Source: Diacronema lutheri (Eukaryota > Haptophyta > Pavlovophyceae > Pavlovales > Pavlovaceae). From it: 64,000 bases of DNA. The notes under the pieces are model-generated. The model was not told the origin of the DNA. It made no database searches and saw only the letters and a list, made by a program, of their open reading frames with translations. Made by a program: the position numbers and the translations under genes. Positions 35,830-64,000 of the stretch are shown here, one piece after another; within the stretch, counting starts at the first letter, position 1; each line of letters opens with the position of its first letter. The DNA is taken from positions 123,139 to 187,138 of the forward strand of contig JAGTXO010000064.1 in assembly GCA_019448385.1 (NCBI GenBank). The letters are read 5' to 3'.

Positions 35830-35923
35830 TCAGAGCATGGCGCCCGCCCGCTCGAGCCGGACCTCCGCGCAGCCGGACTCGCCCCGCCCCGGGCTGCTCT
35901 GGCTGGGCGACGTCGTGCGCGCC

Positions 35924-36222: not shown

Positions 36223-36399
36223 CTGCTTGGGCGCGAACGGAAAACGCGCGAAGGGTGGCGACGAAGATCGTTGGGTTGGGTTGGGCCACCGGCTCCCGAG
36301 GATTGCTTGTGGCGCTCGACTGACCGTTGGCCCAGCTTTTTTTTTTCTCGAACCTACTGTGGAGCCCGCCTGCAGCGTGATCTCCCGCGCACAACGACC

Positions 36400-40309: not shown

Positions 40310-41976
40310 ATGGCGCGTGCACGGCGCGGCGCCTTGAGCAAGTTTTACGTCGTCGGTCGGCAGCCTGTGGAAGACGCGTTTGACGGCCCGATGTGGCCGG
40401 TGAGAGTGCCCGGCGTGCCGCGTGGTGAGCGCCTGCACGGCTTGCCGGGCTCGGCGCGCGCCCAGCCAGCCTCCCTCCATCCCGCCGCAAACCGTGCGTG
40501 CGCACCCCGCACACCCGGCGCTGCGCGGCGCGGCGCAGGCGCGAAAAACGAGGGCAGCGCGTGCTACACGACCGTCCTTATGCAATCGCTCTTCGCCCTG
40601 AACATGCTCCGTGCGATGCTTCGCTCCGCTTCGCGCCGTGCCAACAGCGTCGAGAGGGCGCGTTTTCGGGACTTTGGCACGCTGATCGAGGACACCAGGG
40701 CGCCGACACGGCTGTGTCTTGTGTCCGTCATCGACGTCATCTCGGGCCGTGGCGCGCGAAGGACGCCGCAGGATGCCGCTGAGTTCTTCCGGTTGCTGCT
40801 CGGCCGAGTGCCCGGGCTCGCTGCGGCCTTTGAAGCCGACACACGCGTCGGGCCAGTGCTCGAGCAGATCGCCGTGCCTTCAGAGGCCGGCGAGGGCATC
40901 GCCGTACTCGTCAGCGTCGGCGGCGATGCGGCGCGCGCGCTTGCACACGCTCTGGGGGGCGCCGCTGGGCCGCCGCGGGATCGCCACACGAACGCGGGCC
41001 ACTCGGGCGTGCTCACGCCAGCCAGCATTGCTGTCGAGGCGCCGCGCACGACGCGCGGCAATGGCTCGCAGTGCAAGAACAACCGCGCGCTCGTGTGCGC
41101 GCCGCGGCTGCTGCTCGGCGGGCGCGACCACCTCCCCGTCGCCGGCGTGGTGCACGTGGGCGAGGGGCCGATGAGCGGGCACCTTGTCGCCATCGTGCTC
41201 CGCAACGAGGCTTGGTTTCCGTGCGACGACTACAACGTGCGGCGGCGCGCACGGTCGCTCGGTGCCGCGACCGGCGGTCGAGCGCAGCCGCGACCGCCCC
41301 GTCCTCCCGCGCGGCACGCGCGCGTGGCCTGAAAGCTCGCGCGCGCGCCTGCCGCACGCACGCGCGTTGCCCGCGCAGATCTACAACGTGCCTGAGTCCG
41401 ACGCGCTGGCGTGGGCAAGTGGTGCGAGCATGCTCGTTCACAGCCGGCTCGACGTGGAGCCGTTGGACCCGGCGCTGGGCTCAGCGTCACCGCCGTCGGC
41501 CGCATCGCCTGCGTGGCCGAGCTCGGAGCCCGACGCGCCGACCTTGCCGGCAGCCTGGCCGCGGGTGCGGCAGATGGCAGCGGTGCCAACAGATGCGACG
41601 ATCGGCATCGCGGAGACGGCTGCAGACATCTCTACGGCGGCGATCGGCCCAGCTGCGTGCGAGGCCCGCCAAGTTGTCTCCGTGACGCGCGCATTGCCAA
41701 CAGCGGTGAGTGCGTCCTCGTCTCCGGCGGCCGCTGTGCCCCCCCCCCCCCCCCCCCCCCCACACACACACAACTCTCCCTACCTTCTTCCTCCTTTCGC
41801 ACCTCGCACGCGCACGCCGTCCGCTGTCCGCTGTCCGCGGCCCAAATTGCCTTGCGGAAGCCGAGCAGGCAGAGCCCTGCTTGGATGGCTCCAGCGCGCA
41901 TCTTGTGGATGGCGACGCTGTGGGCGAGCACGGACGCTCAAATGTGACCAGTGGCGCGCACGTGCACGTGCGCTAA
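40310..41976 (+). CDS. Ubiquitin-specific protease (peptidase C19)
   Basis: Four exons join exactly (415 aa): 40310-40424, 40539-41236, 41379-41705 and 41869-41976, all GT-AG with introns of 114-163 bp; the third has a C tract. The first junction creates PGVPRG-AKNEGSACYTT, the USP Cys box with nucleophile Cys and oxyanion Asn. Then come TPQDAAEFFRLLLGRVPG (the QDA.EF box), a shortened fingers/palm region, and the His box AGVVHVGEGPMSGHLVAIVL with AWFPCDDYNV, giving catalytic His and Asp. Exon 3 continues VPESDALAWASGASMLVHSR, the usual C-terminal USP strand. The exon 2-3 junction duplicates the YN pair, so its exact site may be a few bases off. It is a single-domain deubiquitinase. All catalytic residues are present, unlike the neighbouring elements. 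Confidence 0.78.
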
Positions 41977-44707: not shown

Positions 44708-47700
44708 ATGGAGGACTCCGTGAAGGACGCTTTGCCCGGCGGGCGGGGCGGCTCGGACAGTTTCTCGCTGGCCCTCAGCACCATTCTGTCGCCGGGAGAT
44801 ACCCACCCCCACGTGGTCCCATCCACTTGCCTCATCGCCCTGCTGCGTTACGCGGATTTCGGCACGAGCAGGGTTAGGGTGGGCGACACGGGGTGCTCGC
44901 AGCATGCGCTCAAGGTGGCGCTGCGCAACCTGCGCAAAGCATGCGCGGATGCGGACCGGTTTGGGCAGGTGCTCGTGGTCGTGCTACCGCTCTGCCTCCG
45001 CGCGTCCAGCGGCCTCGTGCACTGGACGGCGGCGTACCTGCTCCTCGCGCCGCCCGCGCAGCGCGGCGCGCCGCCCGGCGCCGCGCTCGCCCTGCTCGCC
45101 GATTCGCGCACCTTGGGCAACGGCGAATCGGCGTACGCCACGGCGGCCGGCGTGCTCATCAAGAAGCTTGCGCAGCGCATCGGCAGAACAGCGCCGCCCA
45201 TCGATGCCTTCAAGGCGCCCCCGCAGAGTGGGGCCGCGTGTTGCTTCGCCGCGGCAACAGTCGCGGCCGAGGTCGTGGCGAGCGCATCGACGCTCTACGG
45301 CCGCCGCGCGAGTGTCCTTGTCGACATCAAGAAGGCTTTGGACGCGCGCCTCGCGCGCCTCACGACGGCCGCGTACGAGGAGACCCGCGCGCGCACGCTC
45401 CGCGCCGCCATCGGCGCTCTGCTCGGCGACCGCGCCAGGCGCTTCGGCCCGTTCACCCGCGAGGCCGCGCGGCTCGCCGAGGCCGCGCGGCTCGCCGAGG
45501 CGTGCGATGCCAGTGTCGGCGGATCCGCGCCCGACGGGCTGCTGCAGGCCGTCGAGGCGGCGCTGCGCGCGCCCGACGACCGCATCGCACGCACGGCCGC
45601 GCTCGACGCGCTCACGGGCGCTGCAGGCCGCGCGCTGTCGACGGCGGCCAGGCCGCGCGGCGCGGCGGCGCCAAGGCCGCCGTCGCGAGCGCCACCGCCG
45701 CGTGCGCCGCAGCGGCGCGCCGCCTCGGCGTGGGGGCCCCGACCATTCAGCAGCCTCGGCGGGGGCGAGGGCGACGGGGACGATGGCGACGCCACCACCG
45801 CTGACGACGGGGAGGGCGCGGAGGACGGGGACGACGACCCCGCGGGCGCGGCGGCTGCGGCGGTGGCGACGGGCACGGCGGCGACGAGCGCGGTGGCGGC
45901 GGGCGCGGCGCCAACCTCGCCGGCGGCGGCGGACGGCGGTGGCTCGGCGCCGCTCGAACGCCGCTGCGTCTACACTGCGCCTGATGAGGGCGACGCGGAC
46001 GCGCGCGTGTACGACGCCAAGGACCCCAAGCAGCTAAAAGCGGGCAGGGCGCGGCTACGGGCGAACAGCGGGCGCGCGCCCGCCGTGGTCGACACGCTTT
46101 TCGCGCACGCGACGGGCACGATCGTCACGCGGCAGCGCACGGAGGGCGTGACCGGCGCGGGCATGCACCACCTCGCCGCCCCGACGCAGGGCGCGGGGTA
46201 CGGTGCCGTCGTGCGGGCCGAGCTGGGCGAGCCCGGCTTCGCGGGGACGACATGGCACATGACGTCGGGCGTGGAGAACCAGCCGCGCGCGGTACGAGCG
46301 GCCGCGCGCGCGTACGCGCACGACGGCTGGGGCGGCGTGTACAATGCGCACGAGGACTTTGCCGCCTTCGAGGGCTTGCCGCGGCTCGCCGCGCCCGAAT
46401 CGCTCGCGGCCATCGCCGGCGGGTCGGCGGACGCGGTGTTCTGCTGGCGGTCCGGCCGGTCCGTCATCGGCGAGGTGACGACGGTTCACTTCAATGGCGA
46501 CCGCGCCGCCGCCATCGACCACGCGCGGGCGCTGCGCGTCAGGCCCGATTGGCGCTCGCAGCCCAGGATCTACGAGGCGGCGTGCGGCGCGGAGGGCACG
46601 GTGCTGCTCGTGTGGGTCGTGCCCGACCGTCACAAGAACCCGCGGCTGGACTGGGCGCCGATTCTCGTCGTGATCCACCTGCCCGCCGACCCCGACTGGC
46701 TCGCGCGCGCCACGCCGGCGATCGCGAAGGCGCGGCGCGAGGTCGAGGACGGACGCGCGCGCGCGGAGGCGCGCGGCGTGCCGCAGCACCTCGCCTACAC
46801 GCTGAGCCCACGCTTCCGAGGCACCGCGCCGCGCGGAGCCGCGCGCGTGCCGCCGCGCCTCGGCGCGAGCGACGCGCGCGAGGCGCGCGCGCTCGCGGCG
46901 CTCGAGCCGGCGCTCATGTTCGCGCCGGCCTGGCGGCGCGCGGTGCGCGCGGCGAGCCGCGCCCCCGGCAGTGGCGCCGCGGCCGTCGAGCGCGCGCTCG
47001 CGCGCCTGCACAACGCGCTCGAGCCCGATGACGAGAGCGCGCCCGAGTCGACGCGCGTCGCGCCGCTCGCCGCCGCGCTCGAGCAGTCGGCGGGCTGGCC
47101 GGCGGGCACGGCGCGCATGGCGGCAAGCGTGACCAAGGGCCCCGGCGTCGGAGATGGCGCAGGTGGCGACGAAGTGACCAAAGTGGAGGAAACGGCGAAG
47201 ACGAGCGGCGACGGCTGCACCGGCACGCCTCCTCTGCGCCCGGCCGCGCGCGCGGCCGGCGCGGCGGACGACGGAGGGGCGGCGGTCGTGGCGGGCGTCG
47301 AGGGCGAGCGCGACGCACTCGCCAAGACGGGTGCCGGCGGCTGCGACGACGACGCTCGCGAGCCGCTGTCGGCCGGCAAGCCCGGCGCACTCGCCGCCGC
47401 GGCGACCGTCGGGGGTCTCGGCGAGCTCGTCGGCAGCCTATGCGCGTGGCTGGCGCGCGGCGCGGCTGGCGGCGCCATCGCGGCCATCTCCCCCGGGACG
47501 GCCGCGCGCGGAGCAAACGGCACGCCGCAGCGCGCCGAGCCGCCGGCCGCCGGCGATCCCGTCGCTCCGCACGCGCGCGTCGCCGCTGCGGCGCCCTTGG
47601 CGGGCAGCGCGGCGGCGCCGTCGTCGGCCGCGCGCGACGCGCAGCGCGGCGTCGCGGGAGTCGACGCGGCCGCGCACGCGCACGCGCGCGACGGCAGGCG

Positions 47701-48382
47701 GGCGGCACGGCGGATGCGCGAGCACGAGGGGGCGGTGCACAGGGCCTTCCGCATGTCCCTCTGGCGCGACGCGACGTTTGTCGAGTTCGTTGAGAAGCTG
47801 CGCCCCGACGGCGGCGCGCAGCTGCTCGCGCGCGAGCCCACGCGGCGCGCGGCGGCGGTGCTGTGCGAGCTCGCGCGCGGCCGCGACGGCGCGAGCGGCG
47901 CGGCCGGGCTGCTGCACGAGATGAGAGCCGCCGATGCGCGCGCGCGCGAGGCCGCCAAAGCGGCGGAGGCAGCGCGGCCTGCGCACGGGACGCTGCGCAT
48001 CGTGGCAACCGTGGCGCTGGGCGGTGCGGTCTTCGCCGGCATGTCAGCGCTGGTCGTTGCTTGCGCGGCGCGCACGGCGACCGGTGCGCTTTTTGGGGCC
48101 CGCCGCCCGCGGGCGGCCGCGCGCGGAGCCGACGACGCGCTCGGCACGCTGCAGCGCGCCGAGCCGCCGCCCGCCGACAAGGGCAAGCGCAGGCGCGCCA
48201 GAGCCAACGACGACCCCGTCGACGCGGCGCGCAAGGCCGTGGGCAAGGCGGAGGGCAACTGCCGCAAGGCAGCCCGCCGGCTGCACCTCGCTGCACTGGG
48301 CGAGGAGGAGGCGCAGCAGCGCGTGCTCGACGCCGAGGCGGCGGAGCAGCTGGCGCGCTCGCGCGAGCCGGCCGGCGGCTGG
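44708..48382 (+). CDS. Giant peptidase-YqaJ-chromodomain-Fanzor gene, segment 1: C48/Ulp1-like peptidase
   Basis: First 1,225 residues of the large coding unit. Residues ~60-195 form a C48 (Ulp1/adenain-like) cysteine peptidase: VVVLPLC, His105 in LVHWTAAYLLL, Asp132 in LLADSRTLG, Gln173 and Cys178 in PPQSGAACCFAAATVA. The order His-Asp-Gln-Cys and the spacings (27, 41 and 5 residues) fit the family. An acidic linker (about 340-420) follows. Residues ~440-680 are a globular region containing ADAVFCWRSGRSVIGEVTT and VLLVWVVPD, which might be a degenerate PD-(D/E)XK fold with Thr in place of Lys. One hydrophobic helix (IVATVALGGAVFAGMSALVV) lies near residue 1,105, then a coiled coil (CRKAARRLHLAALGEEEAQQ). 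It ends at a GT donor at 48383; splicing to 48459 keeps the frame. The ATG at 44708 follows TCTGCAG, so an upstream exon is possible. Confidence 0.65.
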
Positions 48383-48458
48383 GTAGGCAGCGCGCGCGCG
48401 CGCGCGCGCGCGCGCCCCGCCGCGCGCGCGCCCGTCGATTGGCGTGCGCGCAGCGCAG

Positions 48459-51400
48459 AACGGCGCGCCAGCTCCGTCACCTGCGCGCCGCCGCGCCCGT
48501 GCCCCTCGCGCGCAGGGGCGCCCTGCGGACCTGCGGCTGCAACAGGCGCACTTTGGCATGCGCGAAGATGCCGACGCGGAAGTGCGCCGCGCGCACGAGG
48601 CGCTGCGCCGGGCGAGACAGGGTGTGGCGTGCGCCAAGGCCAGCGTGCGGCAGATGGAGGCGGCGTTGCTCAACGCGACGCGCTGCGCCACCGCGGTGCT
48701 CGCGCCGCGTGGCGTGCCGGAGGGTGACGAGCAGGCCGCGGCGAGAGAGCAGGCGGCGCTGGACCGGGAGGCGCCGCCGGCCGCGCAACGCGCGGCGCCG
48801 ACGGCGCGCTCGCCCTCGGAGCCGCCGTCCGAGTGGGGCCCGCCAGCGGTCGGCCGGCGCCCGACGCCGCGTGCACTGTCGCACGCCGCGGGTCGCGGGG
48901 ACGACAACCCGTTTGCGCCGCTCGCAACCGTCAGCGGCGATTGGTCGCCCACGCCGAGCTCGCGCTCGCCGTCCTCGCCGCCGCGGCAGCCGCCGTCCGA
49001 CCGCCGCAGCGCGCAGCGTCGCAGCGCGCGCGCGCGGCCGCCGAGGCCGACCGTTTCGCCCGAGGACGCGCTCGCAGCCGAGCGCCAGGCGCGCGCGCTG
49101 TCGGAGCAGGCGGAGCAGAGGCGCGCCAAAAAGGCCGCCGCCAAGGCCGCGCGCCGCGCCGCGCGCGCCGCCGACAAGCGGACGGCGCGCGTCGTCCACG
49201 CGTGCGTAAGCGCCGCCTTGCGGCGCGTCTGCACGAGCGTCGCCACGGGCACGCCGCTCGCCGTGCTCCGCGAGCGCGCCGAGGGGCCGCGCGCGCCGAA
49301 GCCCGCGCCCGCGCCGCCACGCCGCGCAGCGGACGGCGGCCGCGCGCTCCGCCACGCGCGCCGTGCGGCCGCCGCGGCGGCGGAGCGCGAGGCGGCGGTG
49401 GCGGCCGACGCCGACGAGCGGTTCGAGCGGCAGCCCTCCGCCGCCCGGTTCGACGGCGGCGATGGCGGCGGAGGCGGCCACGTCGAGGCGAGCGCGCGAC
49501 CGCGCGCCGGCGAGGCCGGCGAGGCTGGCGCGCACGGCGCGCCTGGCGCAGCGGGGCCCCCGGCGGCGTCGCTCGCGTCGCGCAGCCCGTGTGATGCGCG
49601 CCGCACGGCACGCCTCCCGCACGCACGCGCCGCAGCCACCTGCGCACGCAACGGCGGCTGGGGTGGCAACGTCGGCGGCGACGTGTGCGGCGGTTGTTTC
49701 GGCGGCGGCGGCGTCCGTCGCGACGCCTGCGGCGGCGGCGACGCCACCTGCGGCTGCGGCGATGGCGGCGTCGGTGCTGGCGCTGGCGAGGCCCCTGCAC
49801 ACGGTGCGCCGGCGCGCGCGACGGCGTCGCGCTTGCTGCGCTTGCTCGGCGCGCCACGCGCCGTGCTCGGTGCGATGGCGCACGCCGCGGCCGTGTTGGC
49901 GCGCGGCGTGGCCGCAGCCGTCGCTGGCGTGCGCGCCGCCGCGCGCGCCGTGCGGCGCGCGCGCCGCCGAGCGCCTCGCGCGCGCCGCACGGCTGCGCGG
50001 CGGGCTCGCGGCCCGCCGATGCGCGACGTCGACGGCGCCCTGCGGCCCTCGCCGTCCTGGTTGCGCACACGCCTCGTCTGCGGCCGGCGCCTCGCGCCTC
50101 TGCGCCGCGCGGGCGCGCGCCCGCCGCCCGCACACGCCGCGCCGAGTTCCCGCGCGCGCGCTGCGCAACCCGACAGCGACGCGCCGGCGTGCGCGCCGCG
50201 GCGCTCGGCGCCTGTCGGTGCGCCGCCGCGCGCGCGTGGCCTGCGCGCGGCGCGCGCACGGCGCTTCCTCGACGTCGCCGGCCGCGCGGCGCGGAGCGCG
50301 CGCCTCGGCGCGCGCATCACGCGCCAGCGCACGCCGGGTTCGCCATCGGAGCCCTGCACGGCCGAGAGCGGCGACGGCGCGGGCGCCGGCGGCGTCGGCG
50401 CGGCGGCGCCTGGCGCGGCGACGATGCGCGCCACCGGCGCGCGCGCAGCGCGCGCTGCGGCGGCGGCGGTCGGTGGCGCCTCGCGTCTCGCGCGCCGCGC
50501 GATGGCAAGCGCCGCCGCCGCTGCCACCTCCATCGCCGGCGCTGCCGCCTCCACCGTCGCCGCCGCCGCCGTTGCCATCGGCGCGGCCGTCACGTCACCG
50601 GCGTTCGCCGCGGCGCGCGGCATGGCGGCCGCATGCGTCGCTGCCTGCGCCCGCCCCACCGCCGCGCAGGCGGCCGCGTCGCGCGCGCTCGGCGCGCTCT
50701 TCGTGCTCGTCGACGCGGCCGACGCGGCGGGCGACAGCGACGCCGCGCTCGGCGCGCTCGCGGCCGCGGTCGACGCGACGGAGCTGCGCCCGCCGCCGGC
50801 CTTTTGGCGCGCGGGCCGCGCCGCGGCGTACGCACCGCGTCCGCCGCCCCTCGACTCGGCGCGGCCGCGCTACAACCGGCGCGCGCGCGCACCTAGCCCT
50901 CCCGTCGCGGCCGCGCGGCGCAATCTCGCGCGCGCGGTGCGCGAGCTCACGCGCGCCGCGCGCGCTGAGCGCGAGCGCGCGCCGGCGCCGCGCGGCGCGC
51001 GCGGCGGCGTGCTCCACGCGCTGCGCGCGTCGCTCCCCGTGCACGCGCGTGCCGCGCTCGGCACGGACGCGGAGCTGCGCGCGGACATCGCCGCGTTCGC
51101 GCGCGCGCGCCGCGAGCTGCACAGCCTCACCGACGCCGAGGTGGCGGCGCTCGCGCGCCCGGACGGGCCGCCGCTGCCCGTGCGGCTCGCGTGCACGGCG
51201 GTCGCGCGCGCGCGCGGCGTGACCGTGCTGCTCGACATCGTGCCGCGCGGCGGCGGCGCGCCCGAGCGGCTCGTGTGCCGCGCCCGTCGCCGCGGCGCCG
51301 CCACGCGCACGCCACGGCCGACAGCCGCCGTTATCGCGCGCGCGCCTTGCATAGCGGCGCGCGTTGGCCACACTGAGCCGGCGCGCGCGTGCGCGGGCGG

Positions 51401-52963
51401 ATCGATCGGGGTCGCGCGCCTCCGTTCAGCGCGCCGCCGCTCTTGGCGTGGGGCGCGGCTCGACGTGCACACCCGCGAGCGGCTGGCCACACCGGTGCCA
51501 GGCCACGTCGTGGCCTGCGCCGCCGCCTCGGCCATCGGCGCGTGCGTCGCTCGCGCGCGGCTTGGGCTTGCACGGCTGGCGCGCGCGTGGCCCTGCGCCT
51601 CCGCTCCACTGGCCGCTGCTGCTGTCGCCTTCGCGCCTGCCGCCGACGGTGTTTTCTGCGCCCCGCTGGGCGCTCCTGCATCCGCCTTCGCGCCTGCCGC
51701 CGACGGTGTTTTCCCCGCCGCACTAGCCGCTGCTGCATCCGCCTTCGCGCCTGCCGCCGATTTTCCCGCCCCACTAGTTGCTCCTGCACTCGCCTCCGCG
51801 CCTGCCACCGACGGCGTTTTCCCCGCCCCGCTAGCCGCTGCCGCTGTCGCGTCCGCGCCTGCCGCCGCGGGCGCGTCTTCCGCCCCACCAGCCATCGCCG
51901 CCGCGCCCGCCGCCAACGCGCGCACCGCCAACGTGCCCGTTGCCAACGAGGCTACCGCCACCGAACCAGCCGCCCTTGAGCTTCCCCTCCAACCCGCCAA
52001 CTCGGCGCTGCTTGCGTGGGCGGGCGACGCGGCTGCGCGCCGGCTGGCCGCCGCCGCCGCGAGCGCCGGCCTCCCGCAGGCAGAGGTGGAGCGCATCGCC
52101 AGCGGCGACATGCTCGCCTCAACCGTCGACGCGTGCTGCGAGGTCGTGCTGCGCGTGCACGGGCAGGCCGGCGGCGGGCATGTCTGCCACGTGCCGCTCG
52201 CCGCGCAACCCGCGGTGTTTCAGGACGACGCCGAGCGCGCCGCGCTGCTGCACCGCCTGCGCAGCGAGGCGACAACGCAGGCTGTCATCGGCGTGTGGAG
52301 CCCGTCGGACGAGCGCGGCGGCGCGGGCGGTGACGACGGCGCGCAGCTCGCCTCCGGCCATTTCACCGCGTTGCGCCTTGTGCGCGTCGCGCGCGCGGGC
52401 GAGCATCGCTACGACGCGGTGCTCGTCGACACGCTCGCGTCGCCCTGCAGGCGGGCGCTCGTGCTCGCCAAGGCGATAACTGCCACGCTGCACGCGGCGG
52501 GTCTCGACATTTCGCGCGTGCGCCGCGCGCGGCTGCTCGACGAGGCGGCGCAGCGTGGCGCGACGTGCGGCCTCGCGATAGTGGGCGCGCTCAACGACGC
52601 GCTCGCCGCGGCGGGCTGCTCGTCCGCGCCGCGCACGTTCAGCGTGGCGGACATGTACGCTGTCGGCGAGCGCCTCCGCGTCGCGCTGACCGGCGCGGCC
52701 AGCGATCGTGCGCCGGGCGGCGTCTGCGCGGTCACGAGCGCGGTGCGCGGCGGGGGCAGCCCCGATGGCGCCGAAACGCCGCCGCAGACGCGCGGCGCCA
52801 AGGCCGCCGCTGGCGTCACCGCCGCCGCCACCGCCGCCGCCACGCCGCCGCCGCCCGCGCTGGGCGCCGCCGCCGCCGCCACCGCCGCCGCCGCCGCTGC
52901 TGCCGCCGCCGTGGCCGCGCCGCCACCGCCGCCACCGCCGCCGCCGGCCGGCGACGCGGGCGA

Positions 52964-53045
<82 letters not shown>

Positions 53046-55329
53046 GCCGCGCGCACGTTCTTGAGGCTCGCGCCCAGGGCGCGCGCGGCCGCCTCGGCGC
53101 GTGAGGCGTTGCGCGCCGCGTGTGCGCGCGCGGACGCGGCGGCGTCGTCACACGCGTCGGCGCCGCACGCGCCCGCCGGTGCGCGCCGCCGGCGGCGCGC
53201 GAGCGCAGGCGAGCTGGCGCTCGCGGCTGCGCGCGCGCTCGCCTCGACGGAGCACGGCGATTTGACGGACGACGCGCTCGAGGCCGCCGTCGAGCAGGAG
53301 CTGGGCGACGAGCGCGGCCAACTGCTGCTGTGCACGCGGGGCGCAGCGGCGCAAAGGCCCGCGCTTTGCCGGCTCCTGAAGCACGCGTGCGCGTCGGCGC
53401 GCGCGGCGAAGCGCGCGCAATTCACGGTGTTCGTCGTGCGCGCGGCCACGCGCGGCGAGCGGGGGGGCGCCGCCGCGAGGCGCGTGGACTCGGTGGTCGA
53501 GCTGTCGTGCGCGCTGCACGAGAAGGCGGGCGCGCTCGGCGGCCTCCAGCGCGTCTGTGTGCGTGGCTTTGCCCTCGAGCGCCGCCGGACACTCGACGGT
53601 GGCGCCGAGGCCGGCGCGTCCGCCATCGGCCAGGACGAGCAGGTCGAGGCAGAGGCGGGCGAGGCGTGCGTCGCCGGCGTGACGATGGCCAAGCAGCTGC
53701 GTCAGTTTGCCGAGCAAGCTGCCCGCGACGACGTGCTCTTCCACGTCGCCGTGTCCGAGGCCGACGCCCACGCCCGGCTGGCGCGCGTTGCGGGTGACGA
53801 TGTCGGCGCGTACAGCGTCGTGCTCGCAGTCGCCGGGCTCGTCTGGCTGGCCAAGGCCGACGAGGTTGCGCCGGCGGCCGCCCAGCCCGCCGCCGTGCCG
53901 CCCGCCGCCCCGCCTGCTGCCGCCACGTCCGCCGACGCCGAGCGCGACGCCTCGCCTTCCGACCGCCTGCGCGCGCTGACGCTCGCCGTGCGAGTCGCGC
54001 TCGCGCGCGGCGTGCTGCGCCACCTCCTCGCCGACGCGTCGCCGGGCGCGTCCGCGACCGCTGGCGGTAGTTGCGCGACGCCCGTCGAGGCGGCCACGTC
54101 CGCCGCCGCGCCGCCCGCCACGGGCGTCGTGACGAGTGGCGTTGCGGCGGGCGCTGTGGCGGCCGCACCGGCTGCTGCGGGCGGTGCGATGGCGGGTGCA
54201 TCGCCCATCACGCGGCCGGCGAAGCGCGCGCGGCGCACGCTCACCGCCGCTCCAGCCGCCTCGGCCGTTGCGGCCGCTGGCGGCGCACGCGCGGGCGCAC
54301 GCGGCGCGGCCGGCGCGCCTCGCGCGCGCGCCGCGCGCGCGCCGGCCGAGTACGTCTGGCTTGCCATCGCGCGCCGGATGCTGGCGGCGCGACACGCGGC
54401 GGCCGCGGGCGGCGACTTTGTCGCGTCGTGCGTCGCCGCGATGCAGGCCGAGTACGGCGACGGCTGTGCCGTCGTCGTCGGCGACGCGCCTGATGACGCC
54501 TTGGTCGAGGCTGCGGCGGCGGCGCTGCTCGAGGGCAAGCACGCGGCGGTGAGCCTCGGCTGCGTCGACCGGCCGGCGGTGCTCGTCGTGCAGCGCGCCG
54601 TGGACGCGCCCACGTCGCGCGTGCACGGGTGGTGCGCGCACGCGGCGGGCGCCGCCGAGTTTGACGAGGGCGCCGCGCGCGACGTGTTCAACGCGATCGT
54701 CGAGCGCGCGTGGGCGCTGCGTCCGGACCCGGCCGACGGCAGCCCGCCGCCCACGCGCACGTGGGAGGTCGGGCGCATCGCTGGCGACGCGCCCGACCAG
54801 GCGGGCGTGGCCGCGCTGCGCGTGCTCTACGCGCTCGTCGCGGCGCACGGCCGCTACCGCTCGGCCGCCGCGCTCTTTGGCGCGCTCGCGCAGCTGCACG
54901 CGCCCGACGCCGCCGGCGCGCGCGCGGAGGTCGTCGCGGCGGCGTGCGCGGTGCCGCCCGGCGCGCGGCCGGGCGCCGCGCCGGCGGCCGCGCGGGACGA
55001 CGCGAGGGAGCGCGCATGGGAGGGCGCTCAGATCGCCGCGCTCGCCGTCGGCGCGGACGCTGCGCGCAGGCGTGTCGCGCCCGTGCGCGCGCTCGTCGAC
55101 GCGCTCGGCACGCCACCGACCTCGGCGATCACGGGCGGGCCGGCGGTCCGGCTCGCGGGCGCGGGCGACGGCGGCCACGGTGTACGGTGGGTGGGCGAGC
55201 AGGCGGCGACGCCCGCCGAGCAGCTGCCGAGGGAGCTGCTGCGCGCCTACCACGAGGCGGTGCTGTGCGTCACGCCCGGCAGCCTCCAGCTCGGCCCGGC
55301 GGCGCTCGACGCGGTCACGCGGCCGCGCG
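48459..55329 (+). CDS. Giant gene, segment 2: second C48-like peptidase and Ala-rich linkers
   Basis: Joined in phase to segment 1 by a 76-bp GT-AG intron (48383-48458). The coiled coil continues (QQAHFGMREDADAEVRRAHE), followed by ~1,000 Ala/Arg-rich residues. A second C48-like peptidase carries His (codon 52359, SGHFTALRLV), Asp (52428, AVLVDTLAS), Gln (52551) and Cys (52566) in AAQRGATCGLAIVGAL. Its spacings (23, 41 and 5 residues) nearly copy those of the first, and both share Q-x-G-A-x-C. Near 54,540-54,830 a third module keeps His (GKHAAVSLGC) and Gln (PDQAGVAALRVLYAL) but has Ala where the Cys should be. A poly-Ala run of about 30 (52,967-53,045) comes from a pure GCC repeat, and 51,620-51,860 holds a coding repeat. 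The frame moves by one base at about 55,330. Confidence 0.6.
51620..51865 (+). repeat. Coding minisatellite in segment 2 (about 57-bp unit)
   Basis: About four imperfect copies, each encoding a variant of SAFAPAADGVFPAPLAAAA. The unit keeps the reading frame. It forms a flexible Ala/Pro-rich spacer before the second peptidase. Confidence 0.7.
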
Positions 55330-58300
55330 GAAAACGACACGCTGGAAGGCCTCCTCGCGCGCGTCAGCTGGCAGTGCGGCGCGAGGGCGAGCACGTGCGC
55401 CATGCTCGCCACGTTTTCCGAGCAGGCGGGCACCGGCTCGCGCGTCGCGCTCAAGGCCCTCCGCACGAGCTCCGACCTGGCCGGGCTGACGGCGGCTGCG
55501 GTCGGGCAGCAGGCGCCGCAGACGCCGCCGCCGCCGCTGCTCGTAATGCTCGGCCGCTGCCCCAGCCCGCTCGTCGGCGGCGGCCTCTTCCCGCCCGACC
55601 GCGCGACGGGCGAGCCGGCGGTGCACGCGGCGACGTCCGAGCTCGCCGTCGAGCTGCTGCGCGACGCGCGCGCGCTGGCCGGCACGGACGGGCGGCTCGT
55701 CGTGCTGTGCCTCGAGGCGTCCAACCCGCTCTGGTTCTGCCCCAAGGTGCGCGAGCTCGAGCTGCCGCGGACGCGGTCGGACGGCGTGCGCGCGTCCGGC
55801 TGCACCTGCCCTGCGACGTGCAGCGATGCGCGCGGCGCGGCGGGTGGCGCTGCCCGCGGCGCATCGACGCGGCCGGCGGCGCGCGCGATCAACAAGGCGG
55901 TGCTCGACCACTTCGTCGCGCTTTTCGGCCGCGAGGGCTTCGCGACCTTTGAGTTTGCGGGCGGCGGCGAGGCGAGCTGGCTGTGCGACAGCGCGGCCGG
56001 CACGACGACCGTCGCGGCGTGCGCGTCGCTGCCGCCGCGCATGGGCGATGGGCAGCTGGCCATCCGGCGGCACACGCTCGGCACGGGCGCCGACGCGCCG
56101 GCGCACGCCGTCGTCTCGCTCCGCGTCGCGCACGTGAGCCACGCCATCCGCCGCGCGGCGGACGACGGCGGCGCGCGCGCCGAGCGGATGGCGCGCGCCG
56201 CGCGCGCGTTCTGCGATGTGGCGGCCGCGCTGCGCGTCGACGCGATCCTGGCGGAGGTGCCCGAGGACCGCCCGACGGGCACGCCCTTCCTTGGCGGGCT
56301 GCTCAAATTTTGGGACAAACGCCACGGGAGCTCGACGGCGCCAGCCACGCTCGCGCTCGGAGACGTGCGCGAGGTGGCCAAGCGGACGGCCGACGCAGCG
56401 GCCGGCCGAGCGGACGAGGTCCCTGCGGCTGGCCGTCCGCAGGTCGCGGCGCGCGCGTGCGCTGGCGCGATTGGCGGCGGCGCGGGCGCGGCGGGCGCCT
56501 CGGACGCTGCGCCCCGTGCACTGGCGGGCGCGTCGGGTGCGCGCACGGACGGCGGCCCTGCCGACGCACCGCGCCAGCTGGAGAGCCGCTACGGCGAGGC
56601 GAGCAAGCTCGACCTACCCCAACATTCCACTACGGGCTGCGTCCTCGACGCTCGCGAGGCCCAGGACCGCGCGCGCGTGCCTGCTGCGCCCGACGGCACA
56701 GCGCTGCGCCGCGTGCTCGACGCCGTCGGCGCGGGCGCGCCCGCGCAGCGCAGCCCGCGCTGGCACGACGAGCGATGGGAGGAGGTCACGGGCAGCAAGG
56801 TTGGCGACGTCGTGAACGACAACGCCGGCGTCGCGCACGAGACGCTCACCGACGAGTACGTGCACCGGCGGCGGCGCGAGGTGCGGACCAAGGCGACGAC
56901 CGCGGGCATCCTCGGCGAGGCCGTCGCGCTGCGCAAGCTGGCGGCCGCGTACGGCATCACCGTCGTGTGCAACCTGCCGATGGTGCGTGCGGACCCGCAC
57001 GACAAGAGCGCGCCGTTCGCCTTCTCGCCGGACGGGCTCGCCATCCTCCCCGAAAACAACGAGCAGGTCCTCGTCGAGGTGAAGACGCTCACCAAGGCGG
57101 GCGCCACGGCGCACGAGGACGGGCCGCCGCAGCCGCACCGCGATCAGCTGCAGCTCGGCATGCACGTCCTCGGCGTGCGCAAAGCGCTCTACGTGCAGTA
57201 CCTCAGGCACGAGGACCGGATCGTCGTGCACGTCGTGACGCGCGGCGCCGGCTGGCTTGCATTCGCGCAGCCGAGGGTGCAGGCCTTCTGGGCGCGCGTC
57301 GTCGAGCGGCGCGCGCGGCTCGAGCGCGCGCGCGCCGACCACCCGGCTGCGAGCCGGCGGCACCGGCGGCAGCAGACGCCGGCCGGGCCGCCGCTCGTGC
57401 TCGCGCTGGACGGGCGCATCCCCGCCGCGCGCGCCGCCGCGCTGCACGCCGTCGCGCACGGCACCGCGAGCGCGGCGGCGGTGACGGCGGCGGCGGCGAC
57501 GGGCGACGCGACGGCGTTGCAAGACGCGATCGCGGCGCTGCGCGCGCCCGTCGGCAATGCGGCGATCGACAGCGCAGCGCGTGCGGAGCGCGCGGCCGTC
57601 GAGCGGGCGATCGCGTACCTCGGGCAGCCGGCGGGCGACGCCGCCGCCCGCGGCACGGCCGAGGCGGCCGAGGAGGAGAGGACGGTCGACGCCGACATCT
57701 GCGCGTTGCTGCACCAGCTCGGCGCGAGCGTGGCGCACGTGCACGTCGAGGACGCGGATTGCGTCACGCGTGAGCACTGGGGCGGGGCGGTGCTCGCTGC
57801 AGCGGGCGACCCGTCGAGCGCCCCCGCCATTTCGAGCGTCATCGTCGCGCACATCGTGCGGCTCGCCGGCTTTGGCGTCGAGCTCCCGCAGTCGATTCGC
57901 GTCGCCCCCAGCACGGCCGACTGGCACGAGGGCTGGCTCGACGTGCAGTGCGTGCTGCTGCGCACGCGCCGGCGCGGGCGGCGCGACGACGACTTTGTGG
58001 CCGTCGTCAGGCGCGGTGGGCGCTGGTTTGCGTGCGAGCCCGGCCGCGCGCGGCGGCTGCAGTGGCGGTCGGTCCTGCGCCGCGCGCGCGGCGGCGTCGA
58101 CGGGACCGGCGAGGAGGCGTTCGCGATCGTCTACGTGCGGCGCGGCGACGCGGCCGGCGACGCGGCTGGCGACGCGCAGGCCGAACGGGCGCGCGGCGGG
58201 CGCGCGCGCAGGCGCACGCGCGGCGGCACGCGCAAGCGCAAGCGCGGCGCCTCCGCCGGGCTCGAGGCGGCCGCGCCCGCCGGCGCGCCGGCTGCCGCGC

Positions 58301-61300
58301 CCGCCGGCGCGCCGGCGGGCGCTGCTCACCGCCCGCCCGCCATGCGCGCCACGGTCGCCGCGCGCACCACGCGCTCTGTGACCGACGCGCTGCACTCGGC
58401 GCCTGCCGCCACGGTTGCACCTGTCTTCGACTGGCGCGCCGGCCGCCCGCCCCCCGCCGCTCGAGCCCGCCACCCGCGGCCGCGTGGGCGCGCGCCACCG
58501 GGCAAGGCCTGGGACAGCGTCTCGGGTGCGTGGGCGGACAAGCCGACTGGTGCTGCCGTCGCCGCCGCGCCGCCGCCGCTGCCGCCCGCCGCCGCGCCGC
58601 CGCCCACCGCCGCGCCGCCGCCCGCCGCCGCGCCGCCGCCCGCCGTCGCGCCGCCGCCCGCCGCCGCGCCGCCGCCGCCGCCGCCACCGGCGGCGCTCGG
58701 CCGCCGGCAGCACGTCGGCGCGGGCGGCAGCGCGGCGGGCCGGCGGCTCGCGGCCATCGCACGGCGGCAGCGCGGCGTGCGCGCGCCGCCGCCCGCCGCG
58801 CGCTTCCTCGCCACGCTGCCGCCACCGCCACGCGACGGCCTCGCGCGCACGAGCAAGCAGGCGCGCGCGAGGCGCAACGCGGACGGACGGCCGGCGCACG
58901 CGCGCGCGGCCAACGCGCGCGCCTTCTACCGCGGCGTGGAGCTCGGCGTGCACGCGACGCGCGCCATCGTCGACGCGCGCCACGCCGACCTGCCGCAGGC
59001 CGTCTTCGTGGCGGAGGCGCGGGCGATCGTCGCGCGCTCCGCCGGCGGCGGCGCGCTGCTCGCGCCGGACGACGTGCGCGACCTGTGCGACGCGCAGACG
59101 GACGCCGATCGCGCTGCGATCTGGGCGTCGGTGGGCGCGCACGAGGCGACGCGCATCTTCGCGCTCGTCACGCGCAACGCGAGCTTGGCGGGCGCGGCGC
59201 TGCTCGTGCTGCACACGCCGGCGGGCGCGCCGGCGCGCGCGCTCGGGCTCGTGGCGACGCGCTCGCGCGCGCCGTCGACGGGCGCGCCGCGCGACGCGCA
59301 CAGGGCGCTGGTGCAGCGGTTGGACGTGCTGATGGACGCGATCGCCGCGGCGCGAGGCGCGTCGCCGCTCGAGCTCGAGCTCGCGCTCGCGCCCGAGCCG
59401 CAGAGCGCGTGCAACGCGCGTGCGGCCGCGCTGCTCTGCCTGCAGGCCGTCGCGGACGCGAGCGGCCGTCCCGCCGCTGAGGACGCGCTGGCCGCGCTCG
59501 ACGACGCGCGCGGCATCGACCGGCACTGCCACGCCGTCCGGCAGCAGATCGAGGCGAAGCTCGCGTGGCGGCGCGCCGACGGCGCCGTCGGCGTTGACGG
59601 CGCCGACGGCGCGCCCGCGCTCGCGCCTGCCGCCGCACCGCCGGCGTGCGCGCCGGCGCACGCTGCCGGCGAGGCGGCGGTCGACCAGGCGATCGTCACG
59701 CGGGTGCGCGACGCGCTGCGCGCGTGGGCGACGACTGGCACCGCGCCCAGCGCGGCGGTGCTCGACGACGCCTGCGCCGCGTACACGGCCCGCGCACGCG
59801 CGCGCAAGGACGCGCGCACGGCGCTGGGCCCGACGCGCGCGGCCGAGCTGCTCGCCGCGGCCGCGCGCGGCGGAGCCGACGGGGCGGATGCCGCGCGCGC
59901 GCTGCTCGGCGGCACGCCGCGCCTGCTCGTCGTGCTCCTCTGCGTGCCCGTCGCCGCGCCGTCCGGCGAGCCGCCGCGCCCGGTCGGGCTGCTCGTCGCC
60001 GACCGGCCGACGGACGACTCGCGCCCGGCCGCGCTCGTGCGCTACGACTTTGCGCCGCTCGACGCGGACGTGGCCGTCGCGGTCGGCGCGCATGCCGTCG
60101 CGCTGGCCAGTGCGATCTGGCCGCTGCTCGCGGCCGAGGGGGAGCCGCGGCCATCGCCCGTCGTGCGCTCGCAGCCGCGCGGCGGCGACGATGGCGCGCG
60201 TGCGCTCGCAACGTTCGCGTGCCTCGACGCGCTGATGACCGCCAGCGTCGGCGCGCACGGCCTCGCGGGCGGCGCGGGCATGCTGCCCGCGCTGGTCGCG
60301 CGAGGCGCCGCGGCCGCCCAGCGCGAGCGGCAGCTGCGCGCGGCCGCCGAGAGGCTGGGCGGCACGGTCGCTGGGTGGCCGGACACGGGCGCGAGCGCGG
60401 CGGGCGCGAGCGTCGACGAGGAGGCGCGCACGTACGAGGTCGAGGCGGTCGTCGACGAGCGCCGCAAGGCGGGCAAGAAGGTGACGTTCCAGTTCCGGAT
60501 CAGGTGGCGGGGCTACGACGAGAGCGCCGACACGTGGGAGCCTGAGGCCAACGTGAGCAGCGACCTCGTCGCCCAGTTCCGCAAGACGCGCGACGAGCAG
60601 AAGCGGCGCGCGGGCGTATCGGGCAGCGGCAGCGGCGGCGCGGGCGCGGCGTCGGCATTGGCGTCGGCGCCGCTTCGCGCGCACGGCGAGTCGGGCGCCG
60701 CGGGCAAGCGCGCCGCGGCGGGTGCCGCCGCGAGCGCGCGCGACGCCGCGGGCGCGCGCGCGCCGAGCGTTCCACGCGCGCGCGGCGTCGAGCGCGCGCG
60801 CGTGGACGAGCCCGCTGCGCCGAGCGCGCGCGCCGCCGGCGGCGCGACGGCGCGCACGCGCGGCAGCGTGCTCCCGGGCTTCGTGGTCAAGCGCTCGACG
60901 CTCAACGCGGGGCCGCAGGCGGTGACGGCGCAGCCCGGTGCGCGGAAGGAGCTGCGGCGCATCGCGGCGGCCGTGCACAGGCTCACGACACAGGCGTACC
61001 GCGTCATCAACAAGGTGGTGCGCGACGAGGCTGCGGTGGCGAGCGCGCAGGCCGTCGGCGCGGCGTCGGGCGGCCCGTCGACCAGCGTGCACACGTCGAC
61101 CACGATGGACAAGGGAACCGTCCGTGCGATCTTCTCGGCCATCGGCTGGCACAAGGACGAGAGCACGTACGGTGCAGCGCCCCGAGGCAAGCCCGCCGAG
61201 CAAGCCGCCGCGCAGACCAAGGCGGCGACGGCGCGCGCCGTCGGCGAGATGGCCGAGGGCGTCCAGCCCGTCTGCGCGGTGGGCCTCACGGAGATCCTCG

Positions 61301-61740
61301 AGGCGGAGGCGACGCAGGTGTCCACCGCGTGCCTGATGCATCCATCGCGCGTCGTGAACGGGCTGCTCCGCGACGTCGTCCGCGCGGCAGTCGAGCGCGA
61401 CGAGGCGCTCGTCGCGCTGCCCGAGATGCAGCGAAACGCGCGCGTGCGCGAGCTGTGCGAGCGGCTGCTGCGCGGCGACGTGGAGGGCGCGCGCGTCGGC
61501 TGCCCCGCCGCGCTCGACCGCCACCTGCCCGACATGGTCCTCCACAAGATCGACTACAAGTGCACGCCCACGAAAAGGTGGAACTACGACCGGCACACGA
61601 CGCGCTACTTCCTCGTGCAGATCCGCACCCTGCAGCACGTGGCCGAGGGGCAGGCGCTGCTCTGCCGGCTCGCGCACATCCACACGCAGCTGACCGGACG
61701 GCCGCCGCGGTACAATGTGGCGCCGCTGCGCACGCACAAT
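55330..61740 (+). CDS. Giant gene, segment 3: YqaJ nuclease, degenerate peptidase modules, chromodomain, Fanzor N-terminus
   Basis: Continues segment 2 after a +1 shift near 55,330 (GCGCGGAAAACGAC). A ~300-residue region of unknown type (ENDTLEGLLARVSWQCGARA, PTGTPFLGGLLKFWDKRHG) precedes the YqaJ-type nuclease at about 56,757-57,260. Next come Pro/Ala linkers and two blocks resembling decayed C48 modules (PQSACNARAAALLCLQAV near 59,400; VVRSQPRGGDDGARALATFA near 60,170), then a chromodomain at 60,433-60,594. The Fanzor N-terminal helices follow (RKELRRIAAAVHRLTTQAYR, GTVRAIFSAIGW, DMVLHKIDYKCTPTKRWNYD, RYFLVQIRTLQHVAEGQALL) up to YNVAPLRTHN, where a GT donor at 61741 begins a 130-bp intron. 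It is open for 2,137 codons, which strongly supports selection on the frame. Confidence 0.65.
56757..57260 (+). other. YqaJ / lambda-exonuclease-like nuclease domain
   Basis: Domain within segment 3. It starts with RWHDERWEEVTGSKVGDVV, the usual W..R...iTaS opening. The core has GILGEAVALRKLAAAYG (Glu codon 56917), FAFSPDGLAILP (Asp 57031) and VLVEVKTLTKAG (Glu 57076, Lys 57082), then DQLQLGMHVLGVRKALYVQY, the Q..QM..... helix typical of YqaJ. All residues of the D...ExK centre are present. Relatives are viral or transposon recombinases that resect DNA ends 5' to 3' for strand annealing. Confidence 0.75.
60433..60594 (+). other. Chromodomain
   Basis: Domain within segment 3, directly before the Fanzor helices: YEVEAVVDERRKAGKKVTFQ, then RIRWRGYDESADTWEPEANV and DLVAQFRKTR. 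The three aromatic cage positions of HP1-type chromodomains (Tyr, Trp, Tyr) are all kept, so methyl-lysine histone binding is plausible. Chromodomains occur in retrotransposon integrases, where they direct insertion to heterochromatin. Confidence 0.85.
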
Positions 61741-61870
61741 GTGCGCGCGAGGCGTGGCTGCCGCTGCCGCCGCCGAGGGCCCAAGCGCGCGCGCGCCGCC
61801 GCCGTGCGCGCCGCCCCGCGGCCAGGTTGGTCACGCGCCCGCGCGCTCGCGCGCCGCGCGCTGCGCGCAG

Positions 61871-63596
61871 GTGCCGCGCAACGTGCGCTTCGCCGCGAGC
61901 GCCATCTGGGTGACGCTTTCGGATGACGAGCGCAAGGAGCTGCGCGCGCGGCTCAAGGCGCTGGACCTGCGCGACCACGATGGCGAGCCGATCAAGTGGA
62001 CAGGCACAAACGGCAACACCCCGCCGATGTCGGACGTGCGCGTCAGGTACGCGGTCTTTTGCGACGCGCTTCGACATCTCCAACCGCGTCTTCGACTACG
62101 CCGGGCGCGAGCGGCCGCCGGCCGATCTGCCGTGGCACGCGCGGCGCTCGTGGGTTGGCCTCGCGCCGCTGCCGCGCGTGCCGCTCCCGGGCCGGCAGCC
62201 CGTCAAGTCGGTGGTGACAGATGGCGTCGCCGTGCACGCCGTCGGGACCGTCCTCGTGCCGAAGGCGCAGGCGCCGGCCGGCGGCTCGGGCGTCCTGCAC
62301 CGCTGGCGCCGGCCGGACGGGCGCATCGCCGTCGCGCTCGGCTCCGAGCTGCGGCGGGCGATCGACGTCGAGGCGGCGGTCGTCGTCGCGGCCGACCCGA
62401 ACATGGGCAACATCACCACCTACTCTGCGCACGTCGGGCGGGCGGCCGTCTGGCGGCAGTTCACGCAGCGCGCGCGCGCGCGCGCCGCGGGCTTTGCGCG
62501 CGAGACGGCCAAGACCAACGCGGCGCGGCGGCGCGTGCGCAAGGACGGGCGCGGCGAGGAGTTCAGCGTGGAGGCGGACGAGGCGCGGCTTGGCGAGGCG
62601 CACAGCGCCAAGGTGCTCGGCGAGGGCGAGTTCCACGCCTTCACCGCGAGAGCGCGCGGGGTGCGCGAGCGCGCCGCCGAGCACGTGTACGACGCGCCGG
62701 CGCGCCGGAAGGAGCGCTGGCGGCGCGACAGCGGCGGGCGGTCCAACGCGGCGCGCGTCGCCGAGGCGCTCATCGCGGCGCACTGTGTCGACGGCGTGAC
62801 GCGCGACCGGCTGCTCGTGTGCGTGGGCAAGTGGCTGCGCGACCACAAGGGCGCGCAGCCCAAGGGCGCGCCGCCCGCCTTCCAGGTGGGGCTGCTGCGC
62901 GAGCTGCGGCGGCGCGGCGTCGCGGCCGTCTTCGTGCCCGAGCCGTACACGTCGATGCACTGCTCGATGCCGCGGCTCGCCAAGGGCGGCAGGCTGCAGC
63001 GCTGCGGCGCGGAGCTCGCGCAGAACCCGCGCCTGCCCGTGGCAAAGGGCGGCACGCGCACGGTGCACGCGCTCGTCATCTGCCCGGCGTGCAACGGCGG
63101 CAAGAAGCCCGTGCACCGCGACTACAACGCCGCGCGCAACATCTTCTACGACGTGCACGACATGGCGGCGCACGCGGCCGGGCGCGACACCACGTCGACG
63201 CCTGAGCGCTTTGCCCTCGTGCTCGCCTGGTGGGCGCGCGGCGAGGTGTGGGAGCGTGAGGAGCGCATGGTGCACGGCGAGGGCGACGACTGCGACGACG
63301 AGTGCGACGGCGACGACGAGGGCGACGACGAGGGCGACGACGACGACGACGACGATGGCAGCGGCGACGGCGGCGGCGGCGAGGGCGACGGCGACGGCGA
63401 CGGCGACGGAGGCGGCGGCGGCGACGACGACGATGACGGCGGGGGAGGCGGCGGCGGCGACGGCGGTGGCGACGACGGCGGCGGGCGCGGCGGCGGTGGC
63501 GGCGGCGGCTCTCGCGCCCGCACCCCCGCCCGCGAGCTGCCAGCGCCAGTGCCGGCGGCGGCAGCGCGCGCGGGCCGAAGCGCGGCCGGCCGTTGA
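61871..63596 (+). CDS. Giant gene, segment 4: Fanzor nuclease catalytic half
   Basis: Joined in phase 0 to segment 3 by intron 61741-61870, giving PLRTHN-VPRNVRFAASAIWV, the conserved pre-RuvC strand of Fanzor1 proteins. After a one-base shift near 62,065 (VFCDA / FDISNRVFDYAG) it continues SVVTDGVAVHAVGTVL. RuvC-I is VVVAADPNMGNITTY (Asp codon 62394), RuvC-II VFVPEPYTSMHCSM (Glu 62940) and RuvC-III PVHRDYNAARNIFYDV (Asp 63120), so all three catalytic acids are present. The zinc ribbon has Cys at 62961, 63003, 63081 and 63090; the first pair is widely spaced rather than C-x2-C. A bridge helix-like basic region (FARETAKTNAARRRVRKDG) follows RuvC-I. The C-terminus is a long Asp/Gly tail ending at a TGA at 63594. 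Known Fanzors are RNA-guided DNA endonucleases encoded in eukaryotic transposons and giant viruses. Confidence 0.8.
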
Positions 63597-64000
63597 CGCA
63601 CGGCCGAGCCGCGCAGCGGTCGACGCTTTGCGGGCTCTGCCCAGGTCGCGCGCGGCTGGCGACGCGTGCCGCGCGCGGCACGACCGTGCACGCCGCCACC
63701 CGTGGCCGAGCGCGCCGCACAGCCGGCCCGCTCCAACCGCCGTGCGGATCACGGACGCTCGCTACGGCTCGTCGGCGCGCGTCACCTGCGCCGGCGGCCA
63801 CGGCGCCGTCTGCTCCGGCCTCGTCGCGAGCAGCCCGACCGCTGCTCGCCGCCCGCACGCCGCCGCAGCAACGCTGCGCGTCGTGCTCCCCCGCTCGCCA
63901 AACGCGAAGAGCTCCCTCACAAGGACGTCCTTCCGAACGGCCCGCGCTGCACTCGGGGCGCGATCGTGCCCCTGATCGGATTTGGCTTGACCATCTATAC
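63597..64000. other. Downstream flank of the Fanzor gene, possible guide-RNA region
   Basis: 404 bp to the window edge with no recognised gene. It contains self-complementary GC-rich stretches (GCGCGCGGCTGGCGACGCG, CGCGCGTCACCTGCGCC). In Fanzor and TnpB elements the guide (omega) RNA overlaps or follows the 3' end of the nuclease gene up to the element's right end, so this is where one would be expected. No terminal repeat is visible inside the window. Confidence 0.3.

Follow-up and report, generated by a model that had tools for sequence, protein, structure and literature searches.

What kind of genetic unit places a Fanzor nuclease, a chromodomain and a YqaJ-type exonuclease in one run of coding sequence, and how might such a unit move? 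The question is raised by the last 64 kb of a contig of the haptophyte alga Diacronema lutheri (JAGTXO010000064.1, positions 123,139 to 187,138), a stretch of 64,000 nucleotides that we call the window. A preliminary description of this DNA had proposed a giant gene, joined by two introns and two one-base shifts, that codes in order for two Ulp1-like C48 peptidases, a YqaJ exonuclease, a chromodomain and a Fanzor, possibly within a mobile element. We compared the window with the whole assembly (103 contigs, 43,492,796 bp). Positions 32958 to 64000 form one copy of a giant mobile element, of which this alga has many.

32958 to 64000, + strand: whole mobile element, 31,043 bp (copy alignment, differing flanks)
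Ends of the element: left, (C)TATATA(C/G)GGCGCGG; right, ...GACCATCTATAC

The boundaries are given by two other copies, on contigs C36 and C98, which align to the window from 32957/32958 through 64000 and no further and differ from it in both flanks; the length of the window copy follows from these limits. A third copy, on C71, has both ends in common with it. The window is the end of contig C8, and the right end of the element coincides with the final base of that contig. The exact pattern of the right end occurs 217 times in the genome and that of the left end 208 times, with no match to the reversed control pattern of either. A 2-kb probe taken from the YqaJ-chromodomain stretch found 40 places, counting the one in the window, all at a rounded identity of 100% (the best 40 of 1279 candidates, which were the ones scored). 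The mobility suggested earlier for a Fanzor-bearing element is thus borne out by many copies with sharp common ends, unrelated flanks and a frame that is open elsewhere too, and the near-identity of copies points to recent spread. Pairing of 98 right and 95 left ends on contigs C1 to C42, taken from the first 100 of each (those on C43 to C45 left out), gave 65 left/right pairings within 34 kb, with one right end used twice. The distances cluster at about 21.5 kb (11 pairings), 26-27 kb (7), 29-29.5 kb (9) and 31 kb (29), and nine others fall elsewhere. From a mean paired length of about 28 kb, and with the 65 pairs scaled by 208/95, we estimate that the element accounts for about 4 Mb, or some 9%, of the assembly. 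In D. lutheri NIVA-4/92, the annotated repeats are mainly long terminal repeat and long interspersed nuclear elements according to PMC8379373, whose main text does not contain the string 'transpos'. On C27, left ends at 48026, 55790 and 64293 precede a single right end at 85834, a row that suggests nested or truncated copies.

Six copies were read end to end: the window, c36, c98, c71, s26 and s14. Short BLAST matches (below 400, 200, 150 or 300 bases, depending on the comparison) were excluded from copy comparisons. YqaJ, chromodomain and Fanzor adjoin the right end in all six, and this block is therefore the constant part of these copies; the case named beforehand as fatal to the proposal, with Fanzor and YqaJ lying apart in other copies, occurs in none of them. 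Other parts vary. The 26-kb copy s26 is devoid of the ubiquitin carboxyl-terminal hydrolase (UCH) gene and of most of exon 1 of the giant gene. In the 21.5-kb copy c71, the UCH gene is present, nothing aligns to exon 1 or to the beginning of exon 2, and part of the core of the PIF1 helicase gene is missing. The more diverged s14 (14.6 kb) keeps only 433 bp at the left end and 8.4 kb at the right, along with a YqaJ piece in duplicate. The c71 copy and the window agree at 98-100% in the leftmost 2.4 kb of the element and again from about 52.96 kb up to its right end; the part in between is 87-97% identical. This mosaic shows that lineages which kept or spread both ends have exchanged sequence. 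The proposal of a giant polyprotein element holds as regards mobility and the open frame; it was incomplete in that the 31-kb element also carries genes for a PIF1 helicase and for a UCH-type protease (USP/UCH).

The giant gene, in the right two thirds of the element, is arranged as follows.

44708 to 48382, + strand: exon 1 (open reading frame, ORF, and GC phase)
48383 to 48458, + strand: putative intron 1, 76 bp (GT-AG, frame change)
48459 to 61740, + strand: exon 2 (single open frame in c36 and c98)
61741 to 61870, + strand: putative intron 2, 130 bp (GT-AG, frame change)
61871 to 63596, + strand: exon 3 (RuvC/zinc-finger part of the Fanzor and acidic tail)

All four long open segments reported earlier have a coding-like GC-phase signal in the frames assigned to them. 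The main frame runs over 4495 codons in c36, 4508 in c98, 4086 in c71 and 4907 in s26, and the exon-3 frame over 1015 codons in each of these copies. By comparison, 200 dinucleotide shuffles gave longest frames of 829 codons on average and 1655 at most, against the 4508 of c98. Both intron candidates begin with GT and end with AG; the first lies at the same place in c36, c98 and s26, and the second in c71 as well. Intron 1 is 6 bp shorter in s26 than in the window. For intron 2, the window exceeds c36 and c98 by 2 bp, a difference that proves little because the window copy carries private coding indels too. Both introns are putative, and the arguments for them are the frame change, the GT-AG ends and their position. 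As for the two one-base shifts that had been counted as part of the gene, they occur in the window's copy only, the frames being unbroken there in c36, c98 and c71; they are copy-specific, and we do not treat them as biology. Of two gene-called relatives of the Fanzor, P0009 (46% identity) has its match begin exactly with exon 3 and P0008 12 bases further on; the initial Met of each lies no more than about 12 bases from where exon 3 starts. The coincidence of the P0009 match with the exon edge could reflect a splice site or, equally, a start codon. In EukProt, a 425-residue protein labelled Pavlova_lutheri matches 55402-56676 at 99.3%. We infer that the giant gene would be transcribed and spliced as one unit and translated into one product.

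Along this product, the following segments can be assigned with varying confidence.

45017 to 45253, + strand: first C48-like motif set (HW, D, Q..CC; by eye, unconfirmed)
45953 to 46711, + strand: possible PD-(D/E)xK-like segment (by eye, weak; no family, no PDB match)
52011 to 52700, + strand: second C48-like region (GHF, VD, Q...TCG; motif, unconfirmed by profile)
56737 to 57300, + strand: YqaJ / lambda-exonuclease / RecE-like nuclease (PHROG 434, 9.7e-16)
60433 to 60585, + strand: chromodomain (Pfam Chromo, 1.3e-12, 47.9 bits, cut-off 25.1)
60865 to 61740, + strand: probable N-terminal part of the Fanzor in exon 2 (position and sequence)

Profile searches recovered YqaJ, chromodomain and Fanzor in the order claimed. 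The nuclease assignment comes from PHROG; TIGR03033 (2.3e-7, 31 bits) and Pfam YqaJ (0.0088, 16.8 bits) stay under their cut-offs of 68 and 22, and the two weak matches of the region in the PDB include no nuclease. By eye, it has G..E, D..EVK and Q.Q, which we take to be the motifs of this family. Exon 3 matches Pfam Cas12f1-like_TNB at 6.6e-6 and 26.6 bits, barely over the cut-off of 26.3. The RuvC D-E-D triad and four zinc-finger cysteines are identical in the window, P0008 and P0009, the first cysteine pair not being of the CxxC form. All three also have a glutamate six residues ahead of the first zinc cysteine (ExxxxxxC, as EPYTSMHC or EAYTSMHC). Passages of PMC10711439 describe an alternative glutamate position as a fingerprint of Fanzors. 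Counted on the translation, the protein agrees with the Fanzor motif D-X(125,275)-[TS][TS]XX-C4-X(5,50)-RD given in the relevant passage of PMC3627910. The Fanzor exon is free of stops across the matched stretch in all 78 scored copies (of 644 candidates).

The two C48 peptidases did not fare as well, since no C48 family was found in Pfam at E<=10 for either region, and they remain motif-level proposals. The second region has the ordered H, D, Q and C residues, the same in two subfamilies; its matches in the PDB (four at E<=10) include no peptidase, and its AlphaFold2 model, with a mean predicted local distance difference test score of 42.5, is of low confidence and not usable for the fold. 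It is also the only stretch divergent enough between copies for an informative ratio of non-synonymous to synonymous substitution rates (dN/dS), which is 0.44-0.47 (s14 was left out for the C48 and C48-YqaJ stretches, which it does not have). In a search of 5.8 billion proteins, with 8000 candidates scored per query, we found two relatives for the Fanzor, one for 55402-57300 and none for residues 480-2340 of protein P0003.

Outside the giant gene, the element has further candidate genes and a right-end region next to the Fanzor.

34131 to 34676, - strand: possible gene, 182 codons (codon score only; no Pfam family)
36364 to 39040, + strand: PIF1-like helicase gene in three frames, with small introns or shifts (Pfam, PDB, codon score)
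40523 to 41329, + strand: ubiquitin carboxyl-terminal hydrolase (USP/UCH) gene (Pfam UCH, 4.3e-8)
63597 to 64000, + strand: right end, candidate source of a guide (omega) RNA (analogy with TnpB/Fanzor loci)

The helicase gene matches Pfam PIF1 at 1.9e-15 and 1.8e-24 and the 2B domain at 6.2e-13, and shows helicase motifs by eye. Its best relative in the PDB is Helraiser (4e-25), and the next entries follow at 6.2e-6. The Fanzor gene adjoins the right end of the element, where TnpB elements produce a right-end RNA according to passages of PMC10711439. Outside the element lie a minisatellite, from 18689 to about 21700, with 104 copies reported at 26-bp spacing, and a tRNA-Thr gene (anticodon AGT, 29035-29108, about 3.8 kb left of the element), the one tRNA among 20 sources. 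No Rfam match was found in eight flanking loci, and targeting of tRNA or other RNA genes was rejected.

How the element inserts can be read in part from its ends, near which two structures were noted.

33004 to 33021, no strand: perfect 18-bp palindrome, about 46 bp inside the left end (sequence and DNA fold)
34956 to 35842, no strand: compound inverted repeat, 207- and 174-nt nested arms, 98%

The 31 left ends compared read N-TATA-T/G-A-C/G-GGCG, with TATA in all of them and the preceding base C in 25, G in four and T in two. At the right, 24 of 26 ends have GACCATC followed by TATAC; the other two have TAAAC and TAACG, and the flank beyond is random. Among 21 copies with both flanks, no target-site duplication (TSD) of 6-10 bp was found at any offset tested, and flank matches of 2-5 bp were no more frequent than in permuted pairs. 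No terminal inverted repeats (TIRs) were seen by eye at the ends. The compound inverted repeat is partly missing in c71, and the GC content is near 50% at 35.0 kb. A fixed left-flank motif, similar last bases at the right end and the absence of a TSD form the insertion pattern of IS200/IS605-type or rolling-circle elements. The element would thus insert just after (C)TATA without target duplication, like such elements.

Several insertions adjoin short dispersed repeats of about 70 and 150 bp (left flank of L013, right flanks of C36 and C85, L044, L045, L054 and L060). One such repeat, of 73 bp, has at least 38 further matches, and its end is the insertion point of c71. Five contigs start at the right end of the element (C1, C5, C6, C10 and C12) and five stop there (C3, C8, C13, C14 and C15). 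With contig bounds known for part of the contigs, these ten compare with a single one bounded by a left end (C32). We considered the possibility that the right end is a telomere and rejected it, since TTAGGG arrays sit at the starts of C15 and C30. The contig ends are probably assembly breaks in the homogeneous right part; alternatively, there may be a free DNA end at the right end of the element.

Fanzors inside DNA transposons are already known (passages of PMC3627910, PMC10711439 and PMC10432273). Like those transposons, this is a mobile element with one Fanzor that has their motif; unlike them, it is 31 kb long, its Fanzor shares an open frame with a chromodomain and a RecE-like nuclease, and no Mariner, Sola, IS4, Helitron or MuDr transposase was recognised in it. 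As described in PMC3627910, the Fanzor1 Helitron2 elements CRe-1,2,3 of Chlamydomonas are likewise algal and carry a Fanzor, and their relative Helitron-1N1_CRe, like the present element, makes no TSD and inserts behind a fixed motif, in its case TTTT. CRe-1,2,3 often have TSDs, in contrast to our element, which in turn has its own PIF1 helicase and a long polyprotein frame, with no Rep or Helitron2 termini found. IS200/IS605 elements with TnpB share with it the absence of a TSD, the fixed short left-flank motif, the similar right-end motif and the position of the RNA-guided nuclease gene at the right end (for part of this layout, PMC10711439). They differ in that our element is eukaryotic, 31 kb long and equipped with extra enzymes, and no TnpA-Y1 was found in it. 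The nuclease scores as a member of the RecE/lambda-exonuclease (YqaJ) family, but here it is in one frame with a Fanzor, and no annealing protein was recognised. The PIF1-type helicase is common to this element and to the RepHel proteins of Helraiser and Helitrons; no Rep domain was recognised in the element. DDE transposons have a fixed-length TSD and TIRs, neither of which was found here (TIRs by eye). In the open-licence literature, we found no report of a Fanzor combined with YqaJ, of YqaJ with a Helitron, or of a Zisupton transposon with Ulp1. Three papers mention both Fanzor and chromodomain, and in one of them, PMC6338049, the two are unconnected. A Mimiviridae paper mentions YqaJ together with transposons and Ulp1, and a review mentions Fanzors together with haptophytes. 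The predicted combination of Fanzor, chromodomain and end-resecting nuclease in one gene was not found in the literature searched.

Our preferred account, which we put forward tentatively and at a little under an even chance, is that of an IS605- or Helitron-like element whose Fanzor, with an RNA from the right end as its guide, cuts empty sites, after which repair proceeds from a copy of the element with the aid of YqaJ. Transcription through the right end would yield an omega RNA in which the flanking target acts as the guide. With this RNA, the Fanzor might recognise CTATA-like sites as its target-adjacent motif and cut element-free copies of the target. The RecE-like exonuclease would resect the break, and an element copy would serve as the template, so that the element is retained and spread. 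The chromodomain might tether the nuclease to marked chromatin, and the USP and C48-like parts might process the polyprotein or remove ubiquitin or SUMO. In such a division of labour, the Fanzor would cut, YqaJ resect and the chromodomain target. The mosaic of c71 and the window, alike at the ends and divergent between them, is as expected if exchange involves the ends. The enzyme for strand transfer would either lie in polyprotein regions to which no domain is assigned or act in trans.

A number of observations weigh against this account. In the ORFs scanned, we recognised no recombinase of the HUH, serine, tyrosine or DDE type that could carry out transposition, although short exons and several thousand unassigned residues could hide one. 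The same ORFs, from which small exons may escape, contain no Pfam family for the Y1 HUH TnpA of IS200/IS605 and no Rep (HUH) domain; an HUH-like pattern has five matches in eight proteins, one being HVH at residues 1062-1064 of P0003. An empty site was not found for the two copies tested, and the right-end region shows no unusual RNA fold (z -0.76). As for the Fanzor itself, a DPG at RuvC-I is nearly exclusive to Fanzors according to passages of PMC10711439, but the window has DPN and P0009 DTG. PDB sequence searches returned no solved Fanzor, the best match being Cas12f1 (E 0.12 and 0.087), NCBIfam guided_TnpB gave 14 bits against a cut-off of 100, and P0009 alone reached 0.38 with Pfam TNB. 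Selection is no clearer. The comparison of c36 with c98 gives a dN/dS of 1.21 across the C48-YqaJ stretch and of 0.89 across the YqaJ-chromodomain stretch; the Fanzor exon of c98 has six non-synonymous changes and one synonymous change relative to c36, c71 or s26; and the UCH gene, at 1.23 (c71 versus the window), shows no constraint. Purifying selection on the core domains is thus not shown among the recent copies of this genome, in which the changes are too few to decide, and the catalytic residues conserved in P0009 are the only sign of constraint on these domains. The EukProt protein bears no statement of transcript origin, and expression of the gene is predicted only. Finally, the homogeneity of the ends might be due to recent spread, or to selection acting on them, rather than to RNA-guided conversion.

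In a rather unlikely but serious alternative, a non-autonomous Helitron-type (rolling-circle) element of giant size would have captured a Fanzor and be moved by a Rep-Hel enzyme from elsewhere. It would account for the closeness of the PIF1 helicase to Helraiser, the absence of a TSD and the hairpin-capable sequence near the left end, and CRe-1,2,3 are a precedent. Yet the 31 left and 26 right ends are not of the TC...CTRR type that defines Helitron1 in PMC3627910, and no asymmetric terminal inverted repeat was seen by eye. The 21.5-kb class has spread (11 pairings) although c71, the only such copy read, misses part of the PIF1 core. A genome search with PF14214 (Helitron_like_N) found a single locus, C63:35738-36019 (L052), outside the element; it is frame-broken, looks decayed and does not have the element's ends, so that we rejected a captured Helitron Rep. 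Another idea is that the element is moved without any classical transposase by Fanzor and YqaJ themselves, acting as an RNA-guided system of recombination, with a cut at CTATA, resection, annealing to TATA(C) at the element ends and break-repair copying. The direct repeat CTATA(TA)C/CTATAC at the two ends, the lack of a recognised transposase in the scanned ORFs, the RecE-like exonuclease in the same open frame and the mosaics with homogeneous ends fit this idea. Nevertheless, a homing nuclease copies to matching sites, so that the many unrelated flanks would need changing guides, and four or five shared bases are little for annealing; we consider it improbable. The same low standing applies to its fullest form, a transposase-free mobile DNA in which a chromodomain-tethered Fanzor and a RecE-like exonuclease in one polyprotein would create, resect and repair breaks and so copy 31 kb into CTATA sites.

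Two other explanations concern the nature of the locus. YqaJ, chromodomain and Fanzor might be neighbouring genes translated separately, the long frame being partly a by-product of 80% GC. Shuffled sequence at this GC already yields frames of up to 1655 codons, no transcript spanning the giant gene was seen, P0008 and P0009 begin with Met next to the exon-3 start, and c71 and s26 have little or nothing of exon 1. Against this stand the 4508 open codons, far beyond the shuffles, the coding GC-phase signal across exon 2 and the frame that stays open in c36, c98, c71 and s26 (4907 codons in the latter), so that separate genes are, to our mind, quite improbable. A provirus or virus-derived element, of nucleocytoplasmic large DNA virus or polinton-like type, is more improbable still. 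YqaJ, PIF1-type helicases, Fanzors and C48-like peptidases are also found in large DNA viruses. Emiliania huxleyi viruses carry a Fanzor, as stated in a passage of PMC3627910. In contrast, the scanned ORFs contain no capsid, packaging ATPase or DNA polymerase family, three scans of IMG/VR viral contigs gave no relatives of the Fanzor, YqaJ or PIF1, and about 200 ends lie in one genome.

To return to the preferred reading of an IS605- or Helitron-like element with a Fanzor that cuts empty sites, its interest lies in what it would say about Fanzors, whose biological roles remain unknown according to passages of PMC10432273. A Fanzor in one frame with a resection-type nuclease and a chromatin reader, in a high-copy element, makes a cut-and-copy role testable. 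By our own estimate, the element accounts for nearly a tenth of a small algal genome, in many near-identical copies. It suggests that there is a class of giant elements in eukaryotes in which no transposase is recognised. Its giant gene may represent a natural chromatin-tethered RNA-guided nuclease with its own exonuclease.

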